This document shows, piece after piece, positions 1-6,441 of a stretch of 6,585 nt of DNA (positions are counted from its first letter, which is position 1; each line of letters opens with the position of its first letter). The notes beneath the pieces are model-generated. The model was given only the letters and a program-made list of their open reading frames with translations, ran no database searches and was not told the origin of the DNA. The stretch spans positions 1-6,585 of the forward strand of contig USFU01000095.1 of NCBI GenBank assembly GCA_900554135.1, in the 5' to 3' direction. This DNA is from an uncultured Collinsella sp. GTDB taxonomy: Bacteria > Actinomycetota > Coriobacteriia > Coriobacteriales > Coriobacteriaceae. The translations under genes and the position numbers were made by a program.

Positions 1-681
1 GTTCCCTTTTCGCACAAAGACGAGGCCAAGGCCCTGGGCGCCAAGTGGGACCGGGCCAAGAAGATCTGGTACGTGCCAGATGGCGTCAACCCCGAGCCCT
101 TTGCCGCGTGGCTGCCCGGCGTGGATCGCTCCGACCTCAGCGCGCCCTACATCTACCTGGTGCTGGGCAAGCGCGAATGCTGGAAGTGCCACGAGCAGAC
201 GACGGTCGCGGCCTTTGGCATTCCGTATCGGGCGGCCGAGGATTCGGACAGCTTGGCCGCGCCCAGCGATGCGCCCGCCACGGACGACGCAAGGCGCGTC
301 GCGATCGACACCTCCCACGCCAACGCCGTGGCCATCGTCCCCGCGCTGGGCTGCGTGCCGGCCGAAATCCGCGACTACCTGCACCAGCGCTGCGGCTACA
401 AGCCCGTAACGTCGCGCACCACCAAGACCGCATCGCTCGCCAGCACGTGTACCGGTTGCGGTGCGCTGCAAGGCAGCCATTACCTATTCGAGGAGCCCAC
501 GTCGCCGTTTGCACTCACGGCCATCAACAAACTGCCCGCGCTGGAGTTCGTGCGCGTGGAAGTCGCCGGCGTCTATGGCATCCCCGCCACCCAAGGCGAC
601 TATGATCAGGCGCTCTTCACCTGGGCACGCGACCACCATACTCAGTTCCACAAGAGCCTGTTCGAGGGGATTTACCTGTAG
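1..681 (+). CDS. DUF5710 domain protein with split zinc-binding cysteines (5' end outside window)
   Basis: The reading frame is open from the first base to TAG at 679-681, giving 226 codons; the start lies upstream. Residues 1-40 match the DUF5710 pattern: V-P-F, then KDEAKALGAKWD, a basic stretch, WYVP and a closing F-A-A-W-L. That domain usually begins within about ten residues of the N-terminus, so little is probably missing. DUF5710 occurs alone and attached to primases and plasmid or phage proteins; its biochemical role is not established. The rest is not a family I recognise. It carries CWKC at residues 60-63 and CTGC at 150-153, a pair of CxxC knuckles about 85 residues apart that could form one split zinc ribbon (inference). 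There is no signal peptide or membrane segment in the visible part, so it is probably cytoplasmic. It lies 118 bp upstream of the ATPase gene on the same strand, with the palindrome array between them. Very GC-rich third positions make other frames look open here; they are shadows. Confidence 0.8.
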   Translation, partial: VPFSHKDEAKALGAKWDRAKKIWYVPDGVNPEPFAAWLPGVDRSDLSAPYIYLVLGKRECWKCHEQTTVAAFGIPYRAAEDSDSLAAPSDAPATDDARRVAIDTSHANAVAIVPALGCVPAEIRDYLHQRCGYKPVTSRTTKTASLASTCTGCGALQGSHYLFEEPTSPFALTAINKLPALEFVRVEVAGVYGIPATQGDYDQALFTWARDHHTQFHKSLFEGIYL

Positions 682-688
682 GACAAAA

Positions 689-770
689 CTCGAAAATCGA
701 GTCCAGATTTCCTCGAAAATCGAGTATGATTATCCTCGAAAATCGAGTGTGAAAATCCTCGAAAATCGAG
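689..770 (+). repeat. Array of four identical 13-bp palindromes at a 23-bp period
   Basis: CTCGAAAATCGAG occurs at 689-701, 712-724, 735-747 and 758-770. All four copies are identical and in the same orientation. Each is an inverted repeat, CTCGA/TCGAG around AAA. Start-to-start distance is 23 bp every time, so every linker is 10 bp. Linkers differ but keep T at their first base, and the three internal ones end in TC. The array starts 7 bp after the stop codon of the upstream gene and ends 29 bp before the ATG of the ATPase. A -10-like TATGAT lies in the second linker (725-730), with no convincing -35 hexamer. The layout suggests a multi-site operator for a dimeric DNA-binding protein; if transcribed, it could form four small hairpins. 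The linkers are far too short for CRISPR spacers. The repeat is certain from the sequence; its function is inference. Confidence 0.95.
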
Positions 771-799
771 TATGCGCAGGTAGTGAGGTTTATCAAATC

Positions 800-2098
800 A
801 TGATTTCTTATGGTTCGGAACAGCCCAAATCCTACCGTCCTCGCCTTTTGGACGAACGACTGCAAACCCTGCTCCAGATTTTTGGAGCGGTCGAGATTCG
901 GGGCACAAAGTGGTGCGGCAAATCATGGACCGCGCTCGCATTCGGTGAGAGCGTCGTTCATCTTGACGATCCAAACGTAAAATCGCTGGTCGAAGCCGAT
1001 CCTTCGCTCGCTCTTCAGGGCGATAAGCCGCATGTCATCGATGAGTGGCAGGAGACCCCCGCAACATGGGATGCTACACGCCGCGCCGTAGATGCATCCG
1101 GCGGCGAGAAGGGCCTCTTTATCCTCACCGGGTCGTCAACGCCGGCAAAAGACTCTGTCACTCACAGCGGCGCCGGTCGCATAGTTCGTCTCGACATGAG
1201 CACCATGACGCTTTGGGAACGAGGGCTTTCAACGGGATCCGTTTCGCTGCAAAACCTATTCGAAGGATCATTCGAACCTTCGGCCTATAAAGGCTCGCTC
1301 CCCATGCTGGCCGACGCAATTTGCTGCGGAGGATGGCCGGCACTTGTCGGGGCGAGCCCTCAGATGGCCGCAGAGGTCGTCAACCAGTATCTCGATGCCA
1401 TGTACGAAGTTAGCGTTCCGCAAAAAGGAGGCGTGGGGTCTACAGCACGACACATTGTGTCCTCGCTTGCACGCAACGTTGCGACCTCTGCCACGCTTAA
1501 CACCATCGCTGCAGACGCCTCGTTAGGTGACAGCGACGCCCAGCCGGCAACTTCGACCGTGGCGTTTTACCTCGACATGCTGGAGAGCATGTATGCGCTC
1601 GTCAATCTGCCCGGTTGGGATGCACCCGTCCGCGCAAAGTCCCGCTTGCGCACCAAGCCAAAGCGCTATTTTGCGGATCCCTCCATTCCCGCAGCCGCGC
1701 TTGGAATGAATCCCGAAAGGCTCCTTGCGGACGGCCAAACTTTTGGCCTGCTCTTTGAGTCTCTGTGCATTCACGATCTGAGTGTCTACACCTCATGCCT
1801 GCCCGGCTCGCATCCGGGATCGCTCCACTACTACGGCGACTCCGACGGACTTGAGGTTGATGCCATCATCGAGTTGAACGATGGCCGCTGGGCAGCGATA
1901 GAAATCAAGCTCGGCGAATCCAAAGTTAGCGACGGAATCCGCAACATCGAGCGCCTGCGCCGCAAGGTCGCCCTGAACCCTGCCGCGCGCAACCCCCAGC
2001 CGGAGTTCTGCGCCGTCATCACCGCGACCTCGCCCTTCTGCCGCTACGACGCCGAGCACGACATCTACGTGTTCCCCATTGGAGCGTTGCGGGCGTAG
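800..2098 (+). CDS. AAA+ ATPase with DUF4143 C-terminal domain (COG1373-like)
   Basis: The protein is 432 aa and probably cytoplasmic. The N-terminal AAA (AAA_14-type) domain shows Walker A GTKWCGKS at 35-42, Walker B VIDEWQE at 79-85 with both acidic residues, a sensor-like LFILTGSS at 106-113, and the SGAGRIVRLDM stretch at 123-133 typical of this family. The C-terminal half is DUF4143-like: RYFADPSI at 289-296, LLFESL at 317-322, then EVD (352-354) and EIK (368-370), which fit a PD-(D/E)xK nuclease-like fold. Length is normal for the family. ATPase activity is expected; nuclease activity and the biological role are not established for this family. The ATG at 800 is the only Met in frame after the upstream gene stops, and GAGG at 785-788 precedes it by 11 nt. 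The frame stays open upstream to 461, but only by overlapping the DUF5710 gene. The gene is monocistronic as far as can be seen, and the zinc-ribbon gene converges on it. Confidence 0.9.
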   Translation: MISYGSEQPKSYRPRLLDERLQTLLQIFGAVEIRGTKWCGKSWTALAFGESVVHLDDPNVKSLVEADPSLALQGDKPHVIDEWQETPATWDATRRAVDASGGEKGLFILTGSSTPAKDSVTHSGAGRIVRLDMSTMTLWERGLSTGSVSLQNLFEGSFEPSAYKGSLPMLADAICCGGWPALVGASPQMAAEVVNQYLDAMYEVSVPQKGGVGSTARHIVSSLARNVATSATLNTIAADASLGDSDAQPATSTVAFYLDMLESMYALVNLPGWDAPVRAKSRLRTKPKRYFADPSIPAAALGMNPERLLADGQTFGLLFESLCIHDLSVYTSCLPGSHPGSLHYYGDSDGLEVDAIIELNDGRWAAIEIKLGESKVSDGIRNIERLRRKVALNPAARNPQPEFCAVITATSPFCRYDAEHDIYVFPIGALRA

Positions 2099-2152
2099 GG
2101 CGATCCATTCTGAGGCACCGGATTTGTTCGACCGGCAATTCGGTCAACGAAG

Positions 2153-2434
2153 TTACAGCTCCGTATCGTCATAGGTAATGGCACATCCGCAGGTTGGACA
2201 TTGCTGAGGATAGACTGGAAGACGCAGGCCTGTTCGAGCCCGTAGGTCAGCGGCGTGTTTGTCACGAGTGTCGATGAAGCTGATGTCTAGGCATGGGAGG
2301 TCTGCGCCACAATCCGGACACGGTAGACAGATGTGACTGCAGCTGACTTCGACCGTTGGGAACAGATTCCTATTCATCAGAGCTCGCGGTAGGTTTCCGT
2401 ACACGCCTCGCACGATGTCACTTCGCCATCCCAT
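2153..2434 (-). CDS. Small cysteine-rich zinc-ribbon protein, hypothetical
   Basis: The protein is 93 aa, from the ATG at 2434. I do not recognise the family. It has eight cysteines, including two clear knuckles, CPDC at 39-42 and CPTC at 79-82, the usual pattern of one zinc ribbon; C32, C36, C48 and C84 are additional. The central segment is charged and there is no signal peptide or membrane segment. An in-frame GTG at 2449 would add five residues, but GGGGAG (2438-2443) lies just before the ATG while nothing resembling a Shine-Dalgarno site precedes the GTG, so the ATG is preferred. The gene lies 118 bp downstream of the HNH gene on the same strand, with a long hairpin between them, and I see no convincing promoter of its own, so cotranscription with the HNH gene is possible. 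It ends 54 bp from the end of the convergent ATPase gene. A role as a nucleic-acid-binding or partner protein of the nuclease is speculation. Confidence 0.65.
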   Translation of the reverse strand: MGWRSDIVRGVYGNLPRALMNRNLFPTVEVSCSHICLPCPDCGADLPCLDISFIDTRDKHAADLRARTGLRLPVYPQQCPTCGCAITYDDTEL

Positions 2435-2492
2435 GGTCTCCCCTTTCACGTTTTAGCTGTTGAGGAGAGGATGGCAGGATCGTGCAGCTCCC

Positions 2493-2549
2493 GATGCGAC
2501 GCGGCGCGATCCGATCAATCGACATGATTGGGTTGCACCGCGCCGCATC
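2493..2549. repeat. 57-nt imperfect palindrome (long hairpin) between HNH and zinc-ribbon genes
   Basis: GATGCG at 2493-2498 pairs with CGCATC at 2544-2549. Moving inward there is a one-base mismatch, CGCGG with CCGCG, another mismatch, GC with GC, a small internal loop, CC with GG, a three-base bulge, and CAATC with GATTG around a 5-nt loop. It begins 4 bp after the HNH stop codon. On the minus strand it is not followed by a T-run, so a standard intrinsic terminator is doubtful; an mRNA 3'-end stabiliser or a REP-like element is possible. Confidence 0.55.
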
Positions 2550-2552
2550 TGA

Positions 2553-3635
2553 CTAATACGGGGCAACGGCTTCCGCCCGACGTCGCGATTCCGAGAAATC
2601 GAACTCGGCGCGATGAGCCTCGAGGAATCGAGCGTTGGGGCGCAGATGACGCTCATCCGGCTCCCGCAACACCGACCCGGCAAACGTCGCATAGTCCGTA
2701 TACTGCAGAAGGTACGACCCGCAAAGCTGATAGTCGCCGCGCACCAACTCAAACGAAATCAGATGGGCATCGAAGAGCGAGTGCAGATCGCGGCGTAGCA
2801 GGATTCCGTTGCTGACAACCTGCGATTTGGGACCCGAGTAGTTCTCGATATGCGCGGCTTCGAGCGCTTCGTTGACGTTGCAGCCCGAGACGGCGCATCG
2901 ACCAGTGTAGGCCTCAAAGAGTTCAGTGCGAAAACGCTGCTGGCCAATTCGCTCGCGACGCAGCGCATAACGGACCTTTTCATCATCGCTCGCCGGAGTG
3001 CCAGAAAACTCCGCCGCGACCGGAGCGTCCTTCATGTAGCTCATATCGGGGAAGAAACGAGCGTCTGGTCCACCTTTATGGACGGGGCCATGCAGTACAA
3101 ACCAGCTGTTCTCAGGTTCGTAGCGCTCGACGAATGCGAGGCCCAGCACCTTGTAGCCAGCACTCGTTGCAAAGAACACACCAACGGGAACGCCGCACTC
3201 CATGCAGTTGATCATCTTTTGGTTGTAGTCCTGGTCGCGCCAGTTTTCGACTGAAGCACTTTGCGACGAGTACTTGAGCACCCACGTACCATCCTCAAGA
3301 TAGAGCGGCGGGACATCGGGGTAAGCGCCGCGCTTGGAATTGTGCACGGAGAGCGCAAAGGTCTTCTCGCGCGGATGTTTAACGCGCCCGCGACCAGGCC
3401 AAAAGATGCCCGAATCGCGCGACACCGGAAAGAGTTCGGAATCAATCGTCAGACGAAAAGGATATTGAGGGCTGTCGGCACTCGTGCGATGCGGAAGCTT
3501 ATCCCACAGGCCGCCACGCTGCTCCTCGCGCAAGAACCACTCCCAGGCCTGAACATATTCGAACGGCACAAAGCTGCAAGCGCGGTCGAAACTCGGCCGA
3601 GCAATCAGTGGAACACTAGAAGCGATGCCGTCCAT
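2553..3635 (-). CDS. HNH endonuclease, candidate McrA-like modification-dependent nuclease
   Basis: The protein is 360 aa. The C-terminal third is an HNH domain of the HNH_2 type: CAVSGC at 247-252, LEAAHIENY at 259-266 with the catalytic-type His262, SNGILLRRDLH at 275-285 (Asn276, His285), then LFDAHLI at 287-293. All expected HNH residues are present, so the nuclease should be active. The middle region, with DGTW at 115-118, GVPVGV at 148-153, YKVLGLAFVE at 161-170 and WFVLHG at 178-183, resembles the SRA/PUA-like modules found before HNH domains in ScoMcrA-type type IV restriction enzymes. That would mean cleavage of modified foreign DNA; it is inference from pattern, not a firm match. 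The ATG at 3635 is chosen because GGAGGT (3641-3646) sits 5 nt upstream; an in-frame upstream extension of ten residues lacks such a site. The zinc-ribbon gene follows on the same strand. No methyltransferase is in view, which fits a type IV enzyme. Confidence 0.85.
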   Translation of the reverse strand: MDGIASSVPLIARPSFDRACSFVPFEYVQAWEWFLREEQRGGLWDKLPHRTSADSPQYPFRLTIDSELFPVSRDSGIFWPGRGRVKHPREKTFALSVHNSKRGAYPDVPPLYLEDGTWVLKYSSQSASVENWRDQDYNQKMINCMECGVPVGVFFATSAGYKVLGLAFVERYEPENSWFVLHGPVHKGGPDARFFPDMSYMKDAPVAAEFSGTPASDDEKVRYALRRERIGQQRFRTELFEAYTGRCAVSGCNVNEALEAAHIENYSGPKSQVVSNGILLRRDLHSLFDAHLISFELVRGDYQLCGSYLLQYTDYATFAGSVLREPDERHLRPNARFLEAHRAEFDFSESRRRAEAVAPY

Positions 3636-3665
3636 AAGGAACCTCCAGAAAGAACAGTTCCTCAC

Positions 3666-3693
3666 ATTATCGCCGACGCAGTGATGCCGCCAA
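3666..3693 (-). promoter_or_regulatory. Candidate sigma-70-type promoter of the HNH gene
   Basis: On the minus strand TTGGCG (3688-3693) and GATAAT (3666-3671) are separated by 16 bp, matching the consensus boxes at 4/6 and 5/6. It lies just after the upstream terminator and about 30 bp before the HNH start codon. The small space between terminator and gene makes a promoter here likely, but the -35 match is weak. Confidence 0.35.
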
Positions 3694-3696
3694 ACG

Positions 3697-3729
3697 AAAA
3701 AGGGCCCACTTCCTTCGAAGTGGGCCCTT
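3697..3729 (-). terminator. Intrinsic terminator after the SipW-type operon
   Basis: A perfect 13-bp stem (3700-3712 with 3717-3729) closes a 4-nt loop. Read on the minus strand it is followed by five T residues (3701-3697, two of them overlapping the stem base). It lies 28 bp beyond the stop codon of the distal SipW-type gene and separates that operon from the HNH gene. Confidence 0.9.
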
Positions 3730-3757
3730 GGGCAAGATCGATTAATCTAACTCAGTG

Positions 3758-4702
3758 TTACTTGGAGTCAGGAATGATGCCGACCAAGCTGACGGTGACG
3801 TCGAAGGTCGGGCTTCCTTCGCCAACGTCGAGGCCAGACATATTCTGGCAATCGTTGTCGGTGCCTTCCATCCAGATGACGACTTTAAAGTTAGTGCCAT
3901 CGTAGCCAACGTGAGCGAGCATCTGAGCATCACCCGTCGGCTTTACGTAGGAGTCGCCACTTCCGGTTGCTCCCCAGTTTTTGCCATTCTGATCAACCAT
4001 GTTGGCACCGCACACATGGGCATAAGACGGCGCCATTGTCACCGAAAGGTTGCCAGAATTCACGCAGCTCCAGCCCTCGGTAGCGGAGACATCATTTCCC
4101 TTACCAGTCGGAGGAACAGGAGCATAGACAACCTTAAGCTCATCGTCGATTAGCAGACCAACGCGAAGGCTGCCTTTAATCTTGTTGAACCAGTCTCGCG
4201 AAGCGCCTTCCGATGCGGTTACAACAACGGGACCGTTCGAGCTGCTGTTGTCGAGATAGACGTCAGCTTCACCAGTCTGATTAATCGTATAGAGCGTATA
4301 TTCCGCCATGGTATAGGCGTAATAAGTCTCAGTATCTCCCTCGAGCGTATAGGAGCCCTCAAGCTGCTTGGAGATTGTTGCCTTCTGATAGCCACTTACA
4401 TTTGTACCGTTCCACGATTTTGGAACATACCAGTTAAGGGCATCGTTCGTTGAAGACGGGCTAATTTCATGACCACGACTTGCGGCGGTCGTTTGGTGAT
4501 CACTACCGTCATGAATGGCATCTTTACCGGGCGCAATCTGGAGAACCATTCCGTTTGCCTGAGCGCTAACAGTGCTCGTAGTACCATCGACCTTTGTGTT
4601 TGAAACGAACCAGGCATATGTTGCAGAACCAAGCGCAACCGCCGCCATAACGACAGACAAGGCTGCGACTGCAAGCTGTTTTTTCATCTGCTTAACGCTC
4701 AA
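3758..4702 (-). CDS. Secreted protein with SipW-dependent-type signal peptide (TasA/CalY-like), TTG start
   Basis: The protein is 314 aa. The N-terminus has Lys residues, a hydrophobic core at about 10-26, then GSATYAWFVSN at 25-35, the hallmark of SipW-dependent signal peptides in TasA/CalY biofilm-fibre proteins and related exported proteins. Cleavage near Ala30 is expected. The mature part is Ser/Thr/Gly/Asn-rich and probably beta-rich, ending with IWMEGTDNDC at 276-285 and a final beta-like strand, a C-terminal motif I associate with this protein type in gut Actinomycetota and Firmicutes. The likely role is an extracellular matrix or surface component; this is family inference. The TTG at 4702 is the chosen start: GAGGAGG (4710-4716) sits 7 nt before it, whereas the first ATG (4687) is 22 nt away. 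With this start the signal core lines up without gaps with the neighbouring paralog. It is the distal gene of the pair, behind an internal terminator. No SipW-like peptidase is in the window. Confidence 0.85.
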   Translation of the reverse strand: MSVKQMKKQLAVAALSVVMAAVALGSATYAWFVSNTKVDGTTSTVSAQANGMVLQIAPGKDAIHDGSDHQTTAASRGHEISPSSTNDALNWYVPKSWNGTNVSGYQKATISKQLEGSYTLEGDTETYYAYTMAEYTLYTINQTGEADVYLDNSSSNGPVVVTASEGASRDWFNKIKGSLRVGLLIDDELKVVYAPVPPTGKGNDVSATEGWSCVNSGNLSVTMAPSYAHVCGANMVDQNGKNWGATGSGDSYVKPTGDAQMLAHVGYDGTNFKVVIWMEGTDNDCQNMSGLDVGEGSPTFDVTVSLVGIIPDSK

Positions 4703-4709
4703 CGGAAAT

Positions 4710-4716
4710 CCTCCTC
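4710..4716 (-). promoter_or_regulatory. Strong ribosome binding site that decides the TTG start
   Basis: GAGGAGG on the minus strand lies 7 nt before TTG at 4702-4700. It is only 8 bp past the T-run of the internal terminator, so translation signals begin almost directly after the hairpin. Confidence 0.8.
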
Positions 4717-4723
4717 TCTAAAG

Positions 4724-4754
4724 AAAAAGGCGGGGGACACCTCTCCCCCGCCTT
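4724..4754 (-). terminator. Intrinsic terminator between the two SipW-type genes
   Basis: An 11-bp GC-rich stem (4727-4737 with 4744-4754) closes a 6-nt loop; read on the minus strand it ends in TTTTT then CTTT (4728-4720). It sits 18 bp after the stop of the proximal gene and 21 bp before the start of the distal gene. That leaves almost no room for a separate promoter, so the distal gene probably depends on read-through or on a promoter inside the proximal gene. Confidence 0.88.
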
Positions 4755-4772
4755 GTTTAGCTGCTTATCCCG

Positions 4773-5549
4773 CTAGTTCTTATCGGTCTGAGTAGAGGTA
4801 GCAGTGAAGACAACGTTAATGCGCTTGGAAGCCGTCTTCAGGTTCTCAAGATTGTTCGTAAAGACCTGAGCATCGTCACCATCGTAGAAGACATACATTT
4901 CAACGGTTGTCTCATCCTCGCCAATCTTATCGGCAAGCTTATGCGTGGTGTCAGAAGAGGAGACAATGCCGTCCTTATTGCAAAGCACCCAGTTCTTCCC
5001 GCTCATGACCAGCACGCGAAGCGCAGAATCAAATTTATCATTATCGCCTGTGGCACCCGTAATTTTGGCCGAATCAACTACAAGATTGGTGAGCTCAGCG
5101 CCCTTTGAGCCAACATAAAAGGTGTTCTTTACGGCATACTTTCCAGTAACCGCGGCGGCAGGCGTGCCGGCAGCGTCGGCGCCCTGAGCAGGAACAAGCT
5201 TGACGGTATTGTCGACCTTCAAGCCATCAGTCGCACTGGTACCGAATGCCGTATAGAAGTTAGCCAGCATATCGTACGGAGTCGTGTCGGCGCCATTTGC
5301 CCAATGAGCCGGATAAAGCGGCGTGTTCGCAACAGAAGAATCATCCGTGCGAAGATCCTTAGACTGTTCATTCTCATCACGGATATACATGAACGCAGAG
5401 TTCGACTGAGCAGAAATCTTACTGGTCGTTGCGTCGACCTTGTTGTTGCTCACAAACCATGCGAAGGTGGCGGAGCCGAGGGCTACGGCTGCCACGAGGA
5501 CCATGGCGATGGCGGCGCCCATCTGCTTTTTTAATGCCTTGGTATCCAT
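4773..5549 (-). CDS. Secreted protein with SipW-dependent-type signal peptide (TasA/CalY-like), proximal paralog
   Basis: The protein is 258 aa. Residues 6-35 hold a Lys-Lys pair, a hydrophobic core and GSATFAWFVSN at 25-35, followed by NKVDATTSKISAQ at 36-48; the downstream paralog has the same block at the same positions. This is a SipW-dependent-type signal peptide, with cleavage expected near Ala30. The mature domain is rich in Asp, Thr, Ala and Asn, with predicted beta strands such as NTFYVGSKGAELTNLVV (142-158) and VEMYVFYDGDD (216-226). The last has the position of the paralog's WMEGTD motif but lacks its Cys. The likely role is a cell-surface or biofilm-matrix protein (family inference). 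The ATG at 5549 follows AAAGGGG with a 5-nt gap; the frame is open 56 codons further, but that extension would put the signal peptide deep inside the protein. It is first in the operon, with a long 5' region and a terminator directly after it. Confidence 0.85.
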   Translation of the reverse strand: MDTKALKKQMGAAIAMVLVAAVALGSATFAWFVSNNKVDATTSKISAQSNSAFMYIRDENEQSKDLRTDDSSVANTPLYPAHWANGADTTPYDMLANFYTAFGTSATDGLKVDNTVKLVPAQGADAAGTPAAAVTGKYAVKNTFYVGSKGAELTNLVVDSAKITGATGDNDKFDSALRVLVMSGKNWVLCNKDGIVSSSDTTHKLADKIGEDETTVEMYVFYDGDDAQVFTNNLENLKTASKRINVVFTATSTQTDKN

Positions 5550-5928
5550 GCGGACCCCTTTCTTTCCCCATTCATCCCAGATGACCCTCGAGAAGCCCGG
5601 AAGGGGAGCCCGCGCTTTCGTGTTGGATGCTGCTTGCCCATCCTTTAGACATGGAATTGAGGATACCATAATTCTTACGATTTCCTTATGAGTTTTCGGC
5701 GGCTTAGAGTGCGACATATTCGCGTGGCTACCTTGGGTTATGCGACTTTGTTCGAACGATTTTGACGCACATCATCGAGAGGTCGATAAGTCCGTCTTAA
5801 GCAATAGCTCAAAGGACACGCCGGAGGCACCTCCGAGCACAAGCCTCCCGCCTCTCCCCCACTCGCTATACTGGTGTAGCACGTGTAATTTCTGCCTGCC
5901 TACGCGGGATGTTTGTTGGGAGGATTCC
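5550..5928. other. 379-bp divergent intergenic region
   Basis: This separates the leftward SipW-type genes from the rightward gene at 5929. I find no credible gene in it: the open frames lack start signals or are continuations of neighbouring frames. It should hold the promoters of both units. For the rightward gene there is a candidate at 5762-5790 and an isolated TATACT (5867-5872). For the leftward operon I see no good -35/-10 pair; TATGGT and TATCCT lie within 5659-5669 without a matching -35. A small GGAG/CTCC inverted repeat sits at 5823-5834. Confidence 0.6.
5762..5790 (+). promoter_or_regulatory. Candidate promoter for the 5929 gene
   Basis: TTGACG (5762-5767, 5/6 match) and GATAAG (5785-5790, 4/6 match) are separated by 17 bp, the ideal spacing. 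Transcription from here would leave a leader of roughly 130 nt. The weak -10 box and the alternative TATACT at 5867-5872 keep confidence low. Confidence 0.4.
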
Positions 5929-6441
5929 ATGGCTGCTGCCACTCAACCCAAGGGAAGCGTTTCGTCCGGCTCCATCAAACCGGTGACGCGCAAGGCCGTT
6001 CGTTGTCAGCGCGAAGTCGCCTGGCTGGTCACGCAAGCGGCCGGTAAGCTCGTCGCCACCACCGACGACGTCAACGCGCCCACGCCCAGCTTTGTACTGG
6101 CGGCGGCATTGTCGTACACCCGTGAGCAAGAGCAGGCCGCTCAGGACCGTGGCGCCGCGATTGACTACGAGGCCATCATGGGCCCCGACCTTGCGAGCTT
6201 TTGTGCGGCTGCGGGGCTGCCCGCGGCACCAAACGCGCTTTCGGACGCGGGTTACATGTTCACGCTCTCGGGCGCGGACCTCATCCGCGACCTCTACGCC
6301 TACTGCGGCGACCTGGGCGAGCACACGGAAAACGCGGCGCAGGTCAAACCTGGCTATGCGATCAAGCTCGCGCTGCGGTTGTTCCTGCTGGACGACGCCG
6401 CTGGCAACGGCGCTACCTCCGCAGGCAACGCCTCCGCATAA
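5929..6441 (+). CDS. Hypothetical protein, 170 aa
   Basis: I do not recognise this family. The ATG at 5929 follows GGGAGG (5918-5923) with a 5-nt gap, which fixes the start although the frame is open back to 5740. The N-terminal 20 residues are Ser/Thr/Ala-rich with several Lys, probably disordered. Residues 22-70 and 115-155 look helical. Two Cys are near the middle and later part (C92, C126), one in the N-terminal part (C26), with no CxxC pair. There is no signal peptide or membrane segment; the hydrophobic runs (about 54-62 and 144-154) are short and interrupted, so it is probably cytoplasmic. The C-terminal tail is Ala/Gly/Asn/Ser-rich and low in complexity. The gene stands alone between the divergent region and a strong terminator. 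Its high GC and codon style match the flanks of the window rather than the SipW-type genes. Confidence 0.75.
   Translation: MAAATQPKGSVSSGSIKPVTRKAVRCQREVAWLVTQAAGKLVATTDDVNAPTPSFVLAAALSYTREQEQAAQDRGAAIDYEAIMGPDLASFCAAAGLPAAPNALSDAGYMFTLSGADLIRDLYAYCGDLGEHTENAAQVKPGYAIKLALRLFLLDDAAGNGATSAGNASA

Follow-up and report, generated by a model that had tools for sequence, protein, structure and literature searches.

Direct repeats read by regulators near their target promoters have been described in two systems that resemble the locus presented here. In the parts of PMC10936776 consulted, the target promoters of SARP regulators carry direct repeats close to the -10 element, with 11 or 22 bp between them. 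In those of PMC12255303, RptR, a separate regulator of 9 kDa with a single 6-bp palindrome, acts on three direct repeats in its own promoter by cooperative autorepression within a restriction-modification island. A third point of reference is PDC-S01, a PADLOC phage-defence candidate without known mechanism, which the consulted text of PMC12988326 ranks fourth in frequency among the defences of all prokaryotes, noting that most PDC candidates still await validation. The portions available of the literature on the abundance and history of PDC-S01 mention no array. Among the literature matches listed, a set of partial texts with most subscription papers outside its scope, there was no earlier report of arrays upstream of such ATPases, and DUF4143 appears in one of the texts searched, as an annotation, with no mechanism found for DUF4143 proteins.

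The array described here lies in the window, the whole stretch of 6,585 nucleotides of Collinsella DNA that was analysed, between a DUF5710 gene and the gene of a DUF4143 ATPase (Table 1).

The array in the window

Positions 689-770 hold four exact copies of CTCGAAAATCGAG with a period of 23 bp, precisely where an earlier note on this DNA had placed four identical 13-bp repeats with 10-bp linkers; the linkers (TCCAGATTTC, TATGATTATC and TGTGAAAATC, 10 bp apiece) are all different. Each unit is an inverted and a direct repeat at once, because 5-bp arms surround a central AAA. When up to three mismatches were allowed, CTCGAAAATCGAG matched the window 12 times against 2.35 expected, a count that takes both strands and thus scores each array copy twice, and none of 200 shuffles reached 12. 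In the three closest Collinsella genomes examined (G001-G003), the exact sequence was confined to the array locus (4, 2 and 3 copies); these genomes contained no second CTCGAAAATCGAG array, and their matches with one mismatch were scattered singles. Trans targets elsewhere in the genome were rejected on these grounds. A scan of contigs from one genome per species (84,980 species) for two copies 5-35 bp apart returned seven stretches, three of them the Collinsella array locus and four unrelated. At the orthologous place, copy number was 4 in the window, 4 in L039, 5 in L040 (two of them one-mismatch copies) and 2 in L043.

Table 1. Features of the window in and around the array, with positions counted from its first nucleotide.
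Feature	Position	Strand	Basis or remark
DUF5710 gene, 5' end cut, left neighbour	1..681	+	occurs with or without array and ATPase
Array unit 1, CTCGAAAATCGAG	689..701	+	exact copy
Array unit 2, CTCGAAAATCGAG	712..724	+	exact copy
TATGAT, -10-like, in linker 2	725..730	+	read from sequence; weak, no good -35
Array unit 3, CTCGAAAATCGAG	735..747	+	exact copy
Array unit 4, CTCGAAAATCGAG	758..770	+	exact copy; ATG 29 bp downstream
GAGG, possible ribosome-binding site	785..788	+	read from sequence
AAA_14 + DUF4143 ATPase gene, 432 aa, PDC-S01 match	800..2098	+	Pfam, PADLOC models
AAA/STAND-like ATPase domain, residues about 1-145	800..1234	+	K41, D81, E82
Predicted winged helix-turn-helix (wHTH), residues 187-292	1358..1675	+	
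Helix 251-263, predicted recognition helix	1550..1588	+	top array-covarying residue window, full set
Basic wing, residues 271-287	1610..1660	+	top covarying residue windows (non-redundant set) in and beside wing
PD-(D/E)XK-like nuclease domain, residues 312-432	1733..2095	+	E320, D354, E368, K370

Recurrence upstream of related ATPases

Relatives were drawn from 396 Coriobacteriia genomes, in which 90 of 150 DUF4143 ATPase places were used (the 30 best and 60 more), giving 91 upstream regions with that of the window. Nearly all of the 30 best homologues had a 23-bp periodic upstream array, with sequences differing from the window's. In a scan of periods from 16 to 40 bp, the best three-copy period was 23 in 76 of the 91 regions and 22 in 11. 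A second detector, set to a range of 21-25 bp, found direct repeats before the gene in 86 of the 91; in four other spacing ranges it found them in 2, 2, 0 and 1, and shuffled controls (one per region) in the 21-25 bp range were positive once in 91. Two or three units were still visible in the five regions below threshold (L067, L072, L083, L087 and L129). The arrays have 2-7 copies per region, and their 252 spacings measured 23 bp in 205 cases, 22 bp in 40 and other values in seven. Among 249 control regions, taken upstream of other genes in the Collinsella loci, five reached the threshold; one of these belongs to the L040 ATPase, and the other four were at the bare minimum score of 13. Note that these counts include L147, whose chain from the second detector is probably an artefact, given the 23-bp array that the period scan shows there, as well as L135 and L141, with arrays 172 and 150 bp away from the start.

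The link between array and ATPase gene that the earlier note had proposed is borne out by the contrast between ATPase and control regions, and spacing and orientation are conserved. Of the outcomes that the note had named as adverse, neither random scatter nor loss of spacing was observed; copy number did prove variable. What the note had missed is that the period is common to most close relatives examined and the core sequence is private to each, and because of this privacy hardly anything is recovered when CTCGAAAATCGAG by itself is the query.

Comparable arrays stand upstream of relatives in Bacteroidota, Bacillota, Acidobacteriota and one viral contig; most other DUF4143 clades are without them. 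A set of DUF4143 genes from Bacillota, Acidobacteriota, plasmid and phage records provided 64 testable loci out of 70 (L200-L203 gave no match, L193 and L238 were unusable; L179 and L181 are one gene). All eight members with the P-loop GxKW[CT]GK (two on Collinsella plasmids, two on Bacteroides plasmids, three from Bacillota and one from a phage-like record) scored at least 15. Seven of them beat all of their own 20 shuffles, L180 not rising above its own, and L192 scored 16.5 in another spacing range against 22.5. Because only 9 of 56 genes with other P-loop types reached 13, the remaining 47 staying below threshold, the array is characteristic of one large clade and sporadic outside it. Clear arrays among these other types are those of Acidobacteriota (L217, L226 and L227) and of a Lentilactobacillus plasmid (L244); L220, also one of the nine, has a short-period repeat with an equal score in another range, and the Thermus plasmid gene L245 has no array.

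A window-type profile recovered ten places in 9 of 398 Bacillota genomes, eight scoring at least 13. Three of the ten (L251, L254 and L257) repeat L191, L192 and L180, and five of the seven new places scored at least 13, with L255 at 11 and no array at L256. A shuffle of L257 (18.5) scored above the locus itself, and L258 and L259 are irregular and rich in A and T. Viral contigs yielded no relative with the window protein as query and one (L248) with a Bacteroides query, its four units lying immediately 5' of a TTGATT/TATACT pair. In named plasmid records from different hosts, the array precedes the ATPase in five of seven (L240, L241, L242, L244 and L246) amid differing neighbours; a sixth (L243) is borderline, and the seventh is the array-less Thermus L245. 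Proteins 91-94% identical to the Bacillota relative L191 (P0241-P0360) carry Finegoldia, Peptoniphilus, Levyella, Urinicoccus and Megasphaera names, a spread of names across genera that suggests recent horizontal transfer of L191-like proteins.

Anatomy of the repeat unit

Forty-two arrays were aligned on CTC[GT], a choice that forces agreement at positions 0-3. Likeness at the four central A/T positions is 0.78-0.88, and the centre alternates between AAAA and TTTT in some arrays (L133, L153, L163 and L079). Right-half positions 9-12, which played no part in the selection of the alignment, have a within-array agreement of 0.65-0.84 and 0.07-0.22 bits across arrays. The bipartite site carries a private code. 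Array similarity declines from a median of 0.92 at protein identities of at least 90% to 0.27 at 40-50%. Arrays of paralogues in the same genome (19 pairs, 15 genomes) had a median similarity of 0.33 against 0.31 for matched between-genome pairs; being no more different than these, they led us to reject selection for difference between paralogues.

The earlier note had treated palindromy as the defining feature, a view that does not survive comparison: perfect arms of at least 5 occur in 8 of 87 array consensuses (9%), three of them from the window's locus, against 4.6% of shuffled consensuses. The palindrome as functional unit was rejected, as palindromes are little above chance.

The downstream protein and its covariation with the array

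The window ATPase matches AAA_14 (PF13173; 36.6 bits, gathering cut-off 27) and DUF4143 (PF13635; 101.1 bits, gathering cut-off 28.1), and at E 0.001 Pfam gives these two families only, with SARP/MalT-type DNA-binding and sensor domains absent. Its succession of ATPase, helical and winged-helix parts is the arrangement of a STAND-like P-loop NTPase. The C-terminal domain, with elements in the order H312-332, E342-346, E352-358, E364-370, H373-392 and E403-408, has an alpha-beta-beta-beta-alpha-beta core with the candidate catalytic D and ExK expected of a PD-(D/E)XK-like nuclease. The four candidate nuclease residues (Table 1) are present in 94 of 94 proteins, in which the Walker residues are invariant. 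The archaeal STAND-like ATPases 2qen and 2fna are 14-16% identical, and we know of no array upstream of either. A database protein of 672 aa (P0001), 98% identical to the window ATPase, joins DUF5710, AAA_14 and DUF4143 in a single chain, which is due either to a frameshift artefact or to genuine fusion across the array.

PADLOC model PDLC04790 (PDC-S01) matches the window protein with E 6e-55 and 184.7 bits, and four other array-bearing members with 203-213 bits. Since seven of ten other DUF4143 proteins score 308-565 bits on this model (three are best on another PDC-S01 model), the window protein is a divergent PDC-S01 member. The array as the mark of one PADLOC subgroup was rejected: PDLC04790 is the best model for 8 of 8 array-bearing proteins and also for 4 of 7 array-less ones.

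Array similarity is best tracked by the predicted wHTH recognition helix and wing, beyond global identity. Helix 3 and the wing had been fixed as expected elements before the covariation test; the range 243-283 was chosen after the first run. The test excluded L132 (frame not read) and four loci with arrays scoring under 12 (L072, L083, L087 and L129). Among the 94 proteins, the partial correlation with array similarity, global identity being removed, peaked at residue window 250-258, and the range 243-283 held 15 of the top 20 residue windows and 41 of the 424 overall. Mean covariation was near zero in the ATPase and nuclease parts and 0.06-0.08 in the first wHTH helices. When the set was reduced to 75 proteins with identities below 85%, the 41-window block that ranked best started at 245, the block at 243 coming fourth of 384, and the single best residue window moved from helix 3 to the wing, inside the same block. 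None of 500 label permutations of this smaller set reached the maximum or the regional difference. The effect is modest (partial r about 0.2) and the permutations ignore phylogeny, both of which count against the reading that we favour below. A test of the right half only placed S252 first without significance (55 of 300 permutations), and the single-residue recognition code was rejected. In single-position tests of left-half position 3, columns outside the wHTH lead, apparently following clades.

Promoter context and the DUF5710 locus

A strict promoter scan of the window passed no promoter on the + strand. Between array start and gene, 63 of 87 arrays have -10-like hexamers, 24 of them past the last unit, 24 overlapping that unit or just 5' of it, and 15 earlier; their density per 100 bp is 0.89, compared with 0.47 for the reverse strand. 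To judge from these placements, the array would lie on or beside the promoter as an operator acting at the DNA level. The other 24 arrays have no good -10 before the gene, which weighs against that reading.

The DUF5710 neighbour was found in 22 of 43 genomes of the genus. Array and ATPase occur together at two of its loci (L039 and L040), as in the window, and 19 of the 22 are without array and without adjacent ATPase. At L043, two array units occur without an adjacent ATPase, in place of which there are a MutH-like endonuclease and a C5 cytosine methylase, identified by a Pfam run on L003 (the same locus). In the loci examined, no ATPase was observed at this place without an array, and the left insertion edge, judged by eye, coincides with the first array unit within a few bases. 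The DUF5710-adjacent spot is a place where restriction-type genes turn over. It extends from 681 to 5929 in the window, between the DUF5710 gene and the MAAATQPKG gene, and from 1150 to 4064 in L003, its alternative contents being ATPase and array, an HNH_2 gene, or the MutH-like endonuclease and C5 cytosine methylase. L041 (whose contig ends 1.2 kb downstream) and L056 have DNA resembling L003 where the stretch begins.

Other genes of the spot may be recorded here. The HNH_2 gene of the window (2553-3665, - strand) has a sub-threshold likeness to a phosphorothioate-DNA restriction endonuclease (NF045808, 35.6 bits, cut-off 180). The adjacent proteins of 3758-4702 and 4773-5567 (both - strand) have near-alike N-terminal hydrophobic segments, VALGSATYAWFVSN and VALGSATFAWFVSN, and match no Pfam family above cut-off; the N-terminus of the latter is weakly archaeal-flagellin-like.

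Discussion

We consider it probable that the array is a cis-acting set of private sites at which the ATPase of the next gene downstream binds, cooperatively and most likely for autorepression. Self-regulation by the ATPase, one of several possibilities raised by the earlier note, thus stands as the best reading, and we infer it from the linkage of array and gene and from the covariation of helix 3 and wing. One unit would be bipartite, with a left and a right half on either side of an A/T-rich centre of 4 bp, and would serve the winged helix of one protomer, the recognition helix reading the half-sites and the basic wing the A/T centre. A pitch of 23 bp corresponds to two turns plus about 69 degrees and could set 2-7 protomers abreast in a single orientation, on or beside the promoter. 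Nucleotide-dependent assembly on the array would then be coupled to expression of the ATPase gene, and autorepression, the most likely sign, would keep a potentially toxic ATPase-nuclease at a low level. Binding, cooperativity and regulation are here predictions from sequence, as are nuclease activity and a role in defence. Autoregulation by cooperative self-binding is the simplest function, because no second array was found in the three genomes searched; the two units without ATPase at L043 count against it, as do the strict scan without a + strand promoter in the window, the 47 genes of other P-loop types below threshold, L256, L180 and the likeness of paralogue pairs to matched pairs.

In our estimate it is unlikely that the array is no operator but the DNA on which the ATPase-nuclease itself acts, either as an end for recombination or transposition or as a target to be cleaved. 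Tn7 ends carry arrayed transposase sites, an AAA ATPase with a PD-(D/E)XK-like nuclease does adjoin a 22-23 bp array here, and most DUF5710 loci lack both array and adjacent ATPase, one retaining two units only. However, the array is located in the promoter region and has no matching far-side array within 0.5-1.5 kb, the 87 loci giving 4 extra matches against 2.0 expected. Paired Tn7-like transposon ends were not found in that range beyond chance except at L139, where two of the four extra matches, units 23 bp apart, lie ~1361 and ~1384 bp after the ATPase start, unique among the 87 loci. Small separate repressors on direct-repeat operators control defence islands, RptR being an example in the parts of PMC12255303 consulted, so that a host regulator could use the array to control the ATPase. 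We regard this as quite improbable, since a single factor hardly fits a different core before each paralogue of one genome, the array covaries with the ATPase's own wHTH, and it precedes the ATPase on most of the plasmid records of different hosts with differing neighbours.

The chain of RNA hairpins in the leader that the earlier note had envisaged, or a terminator or attenuator, draws on the ability of each window unit to form a 5-bp stem with a 3-nt loop and on the folding z of the window (-3.8). Most other arrays are non-palindromic, however, and the 87 arrays show no folding excess (median z -0.28, with 16 below -2); moreover, the array is upstream of promoter-like sequence in several members and a scan of the window found no terminator. 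RNA hairpins were rejected, and we hold this explanation highly improbable. Least credible of all is a slippage-prone tandem duplication without function: copy number does differ among alleles, but cores are kept while linkers differ, the 23-bp period recurs across phyla with unrelated sequences, and arrays are rare in the control upstream regions.

A further interpretation, put forward tentatively and with more doubt than belief, makes the array a private self-tag. The array-bound ATPase-nuclease oligomer would be restrained, and loss of the array or displacement from it (e.g., by invading DNA or blocked replication) would free active nuclease, forming a one-gene switch or addiction-like module. 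Each lineage would have evolved its own array-wHTH pair, and the principle would be common to a large candidate defence family.

Returning to private sites for the ATPase, the arrays supply, for a large subgroup of a common candidate anti-phage protein, a predicted DNA ligand specific to each member, which makes DNA binding, specificity swaps and regulation testable together. Furthermore, a winged-helix recognition code could be learned from the natural protein-DNA pairs that arrays and proteins provide.

By analogy, and in the parts of the literature consulted, the nearest mechanistic relatives of the array-ATPase pair appear to be the STAND/SARP regulators and RptR. With the STAND regulators (AfsR, other SARPs and MalT) it would share a nucleotide-switch ATPase coupled to DNA reading, a coupling that is predicted here. 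It differs from them in its Pfam content of AAA_14 and DUF4143 only, in the nuclease-like domain that follows the wHTH, and in sites that precede the protein's own gene and vary from paralogue to paralogue. Compared with RptR, the candidate effector is here itself the putative DNA binder, and the sites are private.
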